NCBI GenBank assembly: GCA_902522865.1
Contig: CABYXC010000007.1
Location: 1-64,000 of the forward strand
Source of the DNA: an uncultured Alphaproteobacteria bacterium
GTDB lineage: Bacteria; Pseudomonadota; Alphaproteobacteria; HIMB59; GCA-002718135
DNA: 64,000 nucleotides
Direction: 5' to 3'
Of this stretch, positions 40,580-42,950 are shown one piece after another. The translations under genes were made by a program, and so were the position numbers. Each line of letters starts with the position of its first letter. The stretch's first letter is position 1. The notes under the pieces were generated by a model. The model was given only the letters and a program-made list of their open reading frames with translations. It was not told where the DNA came from and did not search any database.

Positions 40580-41002
40580 ATGACTCTTGTTTTTGTTAAG
40601 TTTGTTCATTACCTAGCTATAGTCTTCTCTGGTGGAGTGCTAGTAGGTGGTGGTGTAATTCAATCTGTTTATACAAAAGCTAATCAAGTTCCTGATTCAA
40701 TTACAGCAAAAATATTAAAATTACTTGGCTATATAGGACTAATATCTCTGGTTATATTATGGATATCAGGAATTATATTATCAATTAATCTATATGGAGG
40801 CTTTATTATTAATAGCGCATTTACAATAAAAATTGTTGCGGCAGGCTTACTTTTAGGGCTATCTGCTTTTATTAATTTTCATGTTTTTAATTCCTCTAAA
40901 AATAATATACCACCTAATAAAACCATAATGAAAATAGCTACAATGAGTGGAAGAGGGCTGTTACTAATAATTTTAATTACAGCAGCAATTGCTTTTAGTT
41001 AA
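40580..41002 (+). CDS. Four-helix membrane protein, unknown function
   Basis: A 140-residue membrane protein with four helices. The N-terminal KFVHYLAIVFSGGVLVGGG, with a histidine in the first helix, and the later FHVFNSSKNN resemble small CopD/DUF2269-like haem or metal membrane proteins, but the match is weak and I would not name it. It is transcribed alone, convergent to the recombinase gene one base away. Confidence 0.65.
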   Translation: MTLVFVKFVHYLAIVFSGGVLVGGGVIQSVYTKANQVPDSITAKILKLLGYIGLISLVILWISGIILSINLYGGFIINSAFTIKIVAAGLLLGLSAFINFHVFNSSKNNIPPNKTIMKIATMSGRGLLLIILITAAIAFS

Positions 41003-41003
41003 T

Positions 41004-42062
41004 TTATAATTTTTTTGCAGCACTTGTTTCTTTTATATTTGTTAATTTTGTATACCTGTCTATCATTTGTGTAGTTTTATGACCACTTTGCGCCATGATT
41101 TCATGAGTGGGTACACCATTCATTCTAGCTTGTGTTATTGATCCTATTCTTAGGCTATGCCCGGATATTTCATTGCAATTTTCAATACCAGCTTTCTCAG
41201 CTCTCTTCTTTAAAATCAAAACAAAACTTGTGTCAGTCAAACTTACTTTTTGATTTTTATTATTAAGAATATATTTCTCAATATTATTAGCTTTATTTAT
41301 TTTATAGAACAGGGGGCCTTGATCAATTAAAGCAACTTCTAACCAATCCTTTAAAGCTTTTACTGGACAGTAATCATTTTCAGTTTTCGGAAGATATATC
41401 ATTCTCCCTTCACCTTTTTGATCAGTTTTAGAAAAAGGTATTAGTACTTGAACGCCATCTTCTTCAAAATTTAGATGTTCATATTTCATGCCTAGAAGCT
41501 CAGATCTTCTGCAAAAACTATAAAAACCAATCAATATAAGCGCTCTATCTCTTATGTTTCTATAATCTTCATTATCATTTGGAATTTTATCAATAATTTT
41601 TTCAATATCTGCTTTTAATAACTCTCTTGCTTGACCAGATTTACTATTTTTTTCATCTCTAACAATTGCACTAATTGTTTCAGAAATATTTGGGTTTTTT
41701 CTATCAAATTGAAATCCGTTAACTCTATATTTATAAGTAATAGATGCTAAAATTCTTTGTATAGTGGAAGCTTTGTAAGCAGTAGAAGAGTAGGGGTTAT
41801 TATTTACATTTTCTCTACCCGGCATGTTACTCGATCCTTTGAGTATTTTTGCCTCTGGATCTTCGTGAAGCCAATCCATATAATTTGCTGTTAATGCATA
41901 AGCACTATCTAGATCATCAACATCTAAAGGACTGCAATTATATTTATTTTTGCAATAATCGATGAATTTTAACCAATCTCCTTGATATTTATCTTGAGTG
42001 TTTTTGGCCTTAGATTTTTCCCTTAGTTTATGTACTTTATCATTAATTGTAATTTTGACCAT
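41004..42062 (-). CDS. Tyrosine-type site-specific recombinase
   Basis: A 352-residue tyrosine recombinase. The SAM-like core-binding domain is at about 20-135 and the catalytic domain at 150-345. The catalytic set is complete: R185 in CRRSELLG, K212, H302 and R305 in GHSLRIG, H328 in SGHKTTQ and Y337 in DRYTK. It is somewhat longer than XerC or XerD (about 300). A perfect inverted repeat with dif-like geometry lies 10 bases upstream of its start. No phage structural genes are nearby; Sir2 and a small helix-turn-helix gene follow on the other strand. It could be an element integrase or a dedicated Xer-like resolvase. Confidence 0.92.
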   Translation of the reverse strand: MVKITINDKVHKLREKSKAKNTQDKYQGDWLKFIDYCKNKYNCSPLDVDDLDSAYALTANYMDWLHEDPEAKILKGSSNMPGRENVNNNPYSSTAYKASTIQRILASITYKYRVNGFQFDRKNPNISETISAIVRDEKNSKSGQARELLKADIEKIIDKIPNDNEDYRNIRDRALILIGFYSFCRRSELLGMKYEHLNFEEDGVQVLIPFSKTDQKGEGRMIYLPKTENDYCPVKALKDWLEVALIDQGPLFYKINKANNIEKYILNNKNQKVSLTDTSFVLILKKRAEKAGIENCNEISGHSLRIGSITQARMNGVPTHEIMAQSGHKTTQMIDRYTKLTNIKETSAAKKL

Positions 42063-42069
42063 AATATTA

Positions 42070-42097
42070 TATTACGATAATTACAGTTATCGTAAAT
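42070..42097. other. dif-like recombination core site
   Basis: TTACGATAA (42072-42080) and TTATCGTAA (42087-42095) are exact reverse complements around a 6-base spacer (42081-42086). Extending to 11-bp arms gives the 11-6-11 layout of Xer dif sites, and the right arm TTATCGTAAAT matches the E. coli XerD arm TTATGTTAAAT at 9 of 11 positions. It begins 10 bases upstream of the recombinase start codon. It may be its recombination core or an autoregulatory operator. Confidence 0.55.
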
Positions 42098-42224
42098 AAT
42101 AGTCAAGTAATAAATATTATAACTATAAATCAGTATTTTATATATATTATTTAAATCTATTTCTAATATTACAAACTAGATATAGATTTTCACGTGTAAT
42201 AAAATACTGTATATAGTGTATCAA

Positions 42225-42950
42225 ATGGAACAATTACCGCAGATTTCAGCTGATTCCCAGATCTTTGTATTAACGGGTGCTGGTATAAGTAAAGAGTCTG
42301 GGATTGAAACATTTAGAGACTCTGATGGACTATGGAATAATCATAGAATTGAGGATGTTGCGAGTCCGGAAGGATTCCATAGAAACCCTACTCTTGTCTA
42401 TGATTTTTATAATAAACGTCGAAAAGAACTAAATTCAGGAATTAAGCCAAATAGGGCCCATATACTTCTTCATGAATTAGAAAAAACATATAAAATTCAT
42501 ATAGTTACACAAAATATCGATAATTTGCATGAGATCGGAGGATCATCATCAATAATTCACATGCACGGTGAGCTAAATAAAGCTAGATGTATTATGAATG
42601 ATAATCACGTATTTGAATGGCTAAAAGACTTAAATGAGACCCATAAATGCCCTAAATGCGGCTCTCAAATGAGACCTCACATTGTATGGTTTGGTGAAAT
42701 GCCTATGCAAATGGATGAAATTCATGATTTAGCTGAACGATCTAGTCTATTTGTTTCTATAGGCACTTCAGGACAAGTCTACCCTGCTGCCGGTTTCGTT
42801 TCGATGTTTAAAGATATGCGCAAACCAACAATTGAATTAAATCTTGAGCCATCAAGTAATCAAGATCAATTTGATTTTGCCATTCATAAACCTGCTACAG
42901 TTGCTGTTGAGGAATTTAAAAATTTACTTTTAAAAAATTTAAAAAACTAA
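42225..42950 (+). CDS. cobB: Sir2-family NAD-dependent protein deacylase (CobB type)
   Basis: A 241-residue sirtuin. It has GAGISKESGIETFRDSDGLW for NAD binding, TQNIDNLHE, the catalytic histidine in HMHGEL and the WFGEMP substrate loop. The zinc region keeps one cysteine in the first half and CPKC in the second, the same reduced pattern as I recall for E. coli CobB. The ATG at 42225 is preferred over a GTG three codons earlier, though both are possible. It removes acyl groups from lysines and links protein acylation to NAD. It diverges from the recombinase gene across about 160 bases. Confidence 0.92.
   Translation: MEQLPQISADSQIFVLTGAGISKESGIETFRDSDGLWNNHRIEDVASPEGFHRNPTLVYDFYNKRRKELNSGIKPNRAHILLHELEKTYKIHIVTQNIDNLHEIGGSSSIIHMHGELNKARCIMNDNHVFEWLKDLNETHKCPKCGSQMRPHIVWFGEMPMQMDEIHDLAERSSLFVSIGTSGQVYPAAGFVSMFKDMRKPTIELNLEPSSNQDQFDFAIHKPATVAVEEFKNLLLKNLKN

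Follow-up and report, generated by a model that had tools for sequence, protein, structure and literature searches.

Introduction

To our knowledge, nearly all bacteria whose chromosomes are circular have a means of resolving chromosome dimers. Phage P1 uses Cre for plasmid dimer resolution, and loxP is composed of 13-bp arms and an 8-bp spacer. In XerCD/dif there are two paralogous recombinases, and the E. coli XerD half-site reads TTATGTTAAAT. Single-recombinase systems have also been described, XerS/difSL in streptococci and lactococci and XerH/difH in Campylobacter and Helicobacter, in which one recombinase of about 350 aa is linked to a terminus dif (PMC5357621, PMC2731167); the central region of difSL is 11 bp. 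XerL/dif of the Legionellales likewise has a single recombinase with no detectable XerC/XerD, an intergenic site whose arms (10-12 bp) are perfectly symmetric and which lies close to the peak of cumulative GC skew, and an integrated element that leaves one altered copy of the site. In L. pneumophila, dif lies 35-43 kb from the skew inflection and more than 400 kb from xerL, and it is the element LME-1 that leaves one altered dif copy (PMC9765430). The Coxiella copy is carried on a virulence plasmid.

In this study, we analyzed a recombinase gene and the inverted repeat before its start codon in a 64,000-nucleotide stretch of alphaproteobacterial DNA (the window). The locus shares with XerL/dif the single recombinase without detectable XerC/XerD, the intergenic, perfectly symmetric site near the skew maximum (here with arms of 9 bp) and an integrated element with one altered site copy, and differs from the L. 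pneumophila arrangement in that gene and site adjoin. The linkage of a single recombinase of similar length to a terminus site is that of XerS and XerH, but the spacer is 6 bp rather than the 11 bp of difSL, and the modelled fold is nearer to Cre than to XerH. The terminus site, the 6-bp spacer, the inner ATAA-N6-TTAT and the presence of FtsK with a gamma domain in the genomes are as in XerCD/dif, whereas there is one recombinase instead of two and the arms are symmetric. Cre is the closest solved structure by profile and fold, with the same aligned catalytic residues, but identity to it is only about 15-17%, the gene here is a chromosomal core gene, and 9-bp arms around a 6-bp spacer do not qualify as loxP-like. 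We consider it very probable that this is a self-contained, single-recombinase chromosome dimer resolution module, consisting of a Cre-like enzyme and an adjoining dif-type site at the terminus; most economically, it is read as having the layout of XerS and XerH, symmetric arms like those of XerL and a Cre-like enzyme.

Results

Recombinase Gene and Its Active Site

The features of the locus are as follows.

42062..41004 (stop codon included), minus strand: predicted Cre-like tyrosine recombinase, 352 aa, ATG start, from the open reading frame and PF00589
42072-42095: putative dif-type site, arms 42072-42080 and 42087-42095, spacer 42081-42086; perfect dyad, conserved, near the skew maximum
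42077..42106, minus strand: promoter-like sequence of the recombinase, overlapping the site, 9/12 consensus positions
42216..42950, plus strand: divergent SIR2-like gene, the usual neighbor across the site, role in the module not shown
40580..41002, plus strand: 140-aa membrane-protein-like gene, a common neighbor downstream of the recombinase (context)

The initial annotation of a tyrosine recombinase gene was confirmed, with PF00589 (phage integrase family) matched at 65 bits. Six catalytic positions, R185, K212, H302, R305, H328 and Y337, were invariant across 15 homologues and aligned onto the active-site positions of Cre, the tryptophan of Cre being replaced by histidine (H328). When the PDB was searched with the family profile, Cre was the top match by a clear margin (E 1e-11, against 4e-6 for an archaeal Xer and 7e-4 for XerD); XerH did not appear in this list, and absence from such a list is no evidence. 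An AlphaFold model (pLDDT 82, 15 sequences) also had Cre as its best Foldseek match (E 4e-10), and the VIA-align Z-scores of the model were 24.1 for Cre, 19.3 for XerA (with a large rmsd), 18.3 for XerH and 12.6 for XerD. By profile and modelled fold, the recombinase is nearest to phage P1 Cre and qualifies as Cre-like. The comparison with XerS and XerH made in the initial annotation thus held for a single recombinase with an adjoining site, but less so for the protein, which misses the XerS model by far and, by modelled fold, is nearer to Cre than to XerH.

Several named identities were tried and rejected: XerS (17.9 bits against a model cut-off of 267), XerC (TIGR02224, 35.9 against 335), XerD (TIGR02225, 48.8 against 330) and the archaeal XerA (NF040815, 53 against 220). 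As a caveat, the XerC/XerD proteins of the sister family (190-226 bits) also fall under the TIGR02224 and TIGR02225 cut-offs. At about 31% identity, relatives were frequent among plasmids (2167 records) and scarce among phages (7), and the viral contigs searched yielded no relative.

The Repeat and the Promoter-Like Sequence

The perfect 9-6-9 repeat reported upstream of the gene was reproduced as TTACGATAA-TTACAG-TTATCGTAA, with 9 nt between it and the recombinase ATG; its asymmetric 6-bp spacer reads CTGTAA on the strand of the gene. On the plus strand, the right arm plus two bases reads TTATCGTAAAT, which agrees with the E. coli XerD half-site at 9/11 positions, as claimed. The 9-6-9 palindrome is by itself not significant, with seven perfect repeats of this layout in the window against 1.4 expected under a Markov model; evolutionary conservation is what puts the site far beyond chance, because its core is near-invariant in about 70 loci while the surroundings drift.

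To assess conservation, 74 relatives with 67-99% identity were taken from genome contigs, and others were added from whole genomes; one further match outside the 74 came from Spirosoma (30% identity). In the loci with the near-invariant core, TACGATAA-CTGTAA-TTATCGTA, recombinase identity fell as low as 75%, and the core was also kept at 58-67% protein identity, in further genera of the family. A single exact copy was counted in the window's own assembly (1.41 Mb, 73% complete) and one per genome, adjoining the gene, in the genomes listed; a further copy flanking an insert, which the initial annotation had proposed to look for, was not found in the own genome.

Two exceptions were informative. 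In G035, where the recombinase is a 45% identical relative, the two arms had changed in concert to GTATGATAA/TTATCATAC, which is what reading of both by a single protein would predict. At the site of G133 (L170 11181-11204), the arms were retained and the spacer was reversed relative to the gene. In G127 (91% complete), the sole homologue was 44% identical, and the 3 kb read there showed no site. In the G101 assembly (L075; L178), the recombinase frame appears broken into two overlapping pieces (84% and 96% identical in the best segments), through either sequencing error or real decay.

The promoter-like sequence consists of TTGACT (42106-42101), 18 nt and AATTAT (42082-42077) preceded by TG. 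Five such matches occurred in the region against 3.2 in shuffles, which is weak alone, and the TTGACT is kept in nearly all relatives. As this sequence overlaps the site, the recombinase may repress its own synthesis, an autoregulation that is likely but inferred. The SIR2-like gene adjoined the site in nearly all loci of the family that were examined and was not found adjoining the recombinase in G129 and G130; the 140-aa gene was near the recombinase in most, not all, of them.

Distribution of the Recombinase and of XerC/XerD

The window belongs to family f1 of order HIMB59, a group including record AG-337-I02 and several MarineAlpha5 bins; its sister family is f2. The own genome is only 73% complete, and the relatives are mostly partial, single-cell assemblies. 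Within the genus, the gene was found in 76/102 genomes, where completeness figures predict 75.6 +/- 4.3 for a universal single-copy gene; it therefore behaves as a single-copy core gene, and its absence from the data of the remaining 26 is expected from incompleteness, though unproven. Across the order, it was present in 6/7 genera, all within f1, and in no f2 genome.

The distribution of XerC/XerD was the reverse. Nearly every f2 genome gave XerC/XerD matches of about 190-226 bits, usually two, whereas nothing above 56 bits (TIGR02225) was obtained in any of the f1 genomes searched, the weak matches being the site-adjacent recombinase itself or other integrase-like genes. Three f1 genomes that are 90-93% complete (G130, G132 and G133) each had exactly one tyrosine recombinase gene (PF00589), the site-adjacent one. 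One tyrosine recombinase without canonical XerC/XerD is what marks single-recombinase systems such as XerS, XerH, XerL and XerA, and the f1 genomes fit this. FtsK with a gamma domain was present in both families. A search for the E. coli-type dif consensus across the order gave only two-mismatch matches, some of them recurring (TGTATAAAAAATATTATGTTAAAT in genus g1; CTCATAACCTGTCTTAAGTTAAAT in f2), and did not identify the XerCD dif of f2. The proposal of a self-contained system would have been refuted by a canonical dif and XerC/XerD elsewhere together with an unconserved repeat; this failed on each part that could be tested, and the proposal is supported: XerC/XerD were not found in f1, the repeat is conserved with one exact copy beside the gene in the genomes listed, and the location is near the terminus.

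Location of the Site Near the Replication Terminus

Along G083:C1, a 403-kb contig, cumulative GC skew climbs to a peak at 164.9 kb before declining; the peak of coding-strand bias coincides with it, and the site lies at 156.4 kb. In the window, skew peaks at 33.9 kb, with the site at 42.1 kb. The distance was 9.4 kb and 6.8 kb in other genera (G133 and G126) and 26 kb in G020, where the peak is double. Skew position, one of the checks suggested at the outset, thus gave 6.8-9.4 kb for four of the five contigs and 26 kb for the other, over three genera, as a conserved dif-type site near the replication terminus would require; maximum and site do not coincide exactly. Strand-polarized oligomers in G083, considered as FtsK-guiding motifs, were not decisive and probably track strand and coding bias.

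Sequence Exchange and Insertions at the Site

Pairwise comparisons revealed abrupt changes of identity at the site. Between the window and L023, 1.6 kb on the sirtuin side was 99-100% identical, with an immediate drop to 70-94% on the recombinase side; against L072, identity changed at the site from mostly 98-100% to 63-92%; against L006, it was the recombinase side that was 98-100% identical and the other side that was lower. Over 68 loci, the correlation of pairwise identity was 0.82-0.90 between adjacent segments on the same side and 0.42 between segments 170 bp apart across the site. The identity switches and the drop in correlation place a cluster of crossovers from about 110 bp upstream to 60 bp downstream of the site. 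Site-specific recombination is a natural cause of this clustering; homologous recombination ending at the site is not excluded.

The site also borders inserted DNA. Homology between G098 and G083 begins again no more than 4 bp from the site; across the site, G098 has a variable stretch, at the end of which are a defence-gene island and a second recombinase with 44% identity. The native site there has one change in its gene-distal arm, TTACGTTAA. By inspection, the island encodes a Z1-like ATPase, an AIPR-like protein, a Vsr-like nuclease and a DNA cytosine methylase. A similar island adjoins the replaced recombinase of G035 (L166 6224-14368 and L168 42-7416 in the G098 and G035 loci), and this recurrent island resembles one for phage defence that inserts at the terminus site. 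Both islands are accompanied by a divergent SIR2-like copy, about 50% identical (L166 15890-16612; L168 7413-8150).

A Counterpart in Family f89

A class-wide profile search returned homologues (E 1e-42 to 1e-59) in each of the four genomes sampled from family f89, which are single-contig assemblies of 1.20-1.32 Mb with 29-30% G+C. One 20-kb stretch of G345 has a coding density of 94% and, by inspection, argC-, hom- and glpX-like biosynthetic genes. Because of the G+C, the coding density and these biosynthetic genes of a free-living organism, f89 is taken to be Pelagibacteraceae (SAR11), an inferred identity. The homologue was present in 101/118 genomes of the family, covering all nine genera, and was the only tyrosine recombinase gene of G345 and G494; no match of XerC/XerD strength was found in the four sampled genomes.

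An inverted repeat of about 13-7-13 layout, for example TTACTAATGATAA-TTAATTG-TTATCAATAGTAA, lay directly before the start codon in 30/30 loci examined, between a TTGACA-like box and the start codon. With skew sampled at 60-66 kb spacing in three closed genomes, its maximum fell in the interval that holds the gene or in an adjoining one (G345, 674 kb; G425, 524 kb; G248, 774 kb). Carnoy and Roten reported Pelagibacter ubique to be without a dif/Xer system, which was explained by genome streamlining (PMC2731167), and our literature search found no description of such a system in SAR11. Among relatives from plasmids and other alphaproteobacteria, the f1 proteins and the SAR11 proteins each form a tight group; a joint clade was not rejected (p-AU 0.30), and one versus two recruitments remains unresolved.

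Discussion

The evidence for a dimer resolution module that was observed directly by computation comprises the gene-site pair and its conservation, the lack of detectable XerC/XerD and the terminus location, together with the paired arm changes, the exchange at the site and the Cre-like sequence and fold. The independent parallel in inferred SAR11, with a core homologue that has its own repeat near the skew maximum, counts for the same reading. The way in which the module would work is inferred. In a chromosome dimer, two copies of the palindromic site would meet at the division septum; four protomers would bind them, and strands would be exchanged across the asymmetric 6-bp spacer, returning the dimer to monomers. 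The Cre-like module would replace XerC/XerD in family f1, and the recombinase may repress its own synthesis through the site that overlaps its promoter-like sequence. Binding, cleavage, dimer resolution, FtsK involvement and autoregulation are all inferred, and no recombination was measured.

The main rival cause of the conservation is regulation, since a promoter-like sequence overlaps the site. The palindrome would then be only an operator, bound by the recombinase or some other regulator to control the recombinase promoter, with recombination occurring elsewhere or not at all; the conserved TTGACT is compatible with this, as is the inferred SAR11 repeat in the corresponding position. However, an operator leaves unexplained the terminus location in both f1 and inferred SAR11, the loss of XerC/XerD and the identity switch at the site, and we regard it as quite unlikely. 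The insertions bear on another explanation, in which the recombinase is the integrase of a mobile element or island-insertion system, the site its attachment site and the terminus a preferred landing zone. The defence island and the second recombinase of G098 abut the site, relatives of the enzyme are common on plasmids, and the integration-site alternative raised in the initial annotation could be separated only in part because the locus is also hit by insertion. Against it, the gene is single-copy core across the family and lies in a mostly conserved gene neighborhood, the own genome has just one exact site and no other copy flanking an insert, and in three near-complete genomes this is the only tyrosine recombinase; this explanation appears very unlikely to us.

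It might also be that XerC/XerD are present and were missed, the recombinase being merely accessory, since the own genome is incomplete and most relatives are partial single-cell assemblies. No match of XerC/XerD strength appeared in any family genome searched, however, and the same search recovers both proteins in the sister family; were XerD present in all 102 genus genomes, its absence everywhere would have a log10 probability of about -65. This possibility is hardly credible.

The dimer resolution module is a refinement of the earlier hypothesis, as a family trait with a counterpart in inferred SAR11. With more reserve, we lean toward a broader reading, in which plasmid-type Cre-like recombinases were recruited as chromosome dimer resolvases in f1 and SAR11 in place of XerCD, Pelagibacter has such a system, the enzyme is autoregulated by dif, and exchange at the site shuffles terminus flanks between lineages. 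If true, a Cre-like system would fill the dif/Xer gap in some of the most abundant bacteria of the ocean, and XerCD would have been replaced once or twice by plasmid-type enzymes. The genes and sites would be sufficiently specific to be tested directly in E. coli or yeast, and they would provide new recombinase-site pairs and a terminus marker for fragmentary marine genomes.

Palindromes of the form CGATAA-N6-TTATCG were seen within about 600 bp of homologue genes in other alphaproteobacteria with larger genomes (L243 1439-1462, L253 1102-1125 and L244 1113-1136). Only a few homologues show them, and they hint at a half-site common to the recombinase family; looser matches are mixed with chance and are not claimed. 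The only other tyrosine recombinase gene of the own genome is a 374-aa integrase-like open reading frame (L004 1474-2598, in G000:C1), the N-terminal reading of which, MPRLKSRVRIPSPAP, resembles a tRNA-end overlap typical of an integrated element.
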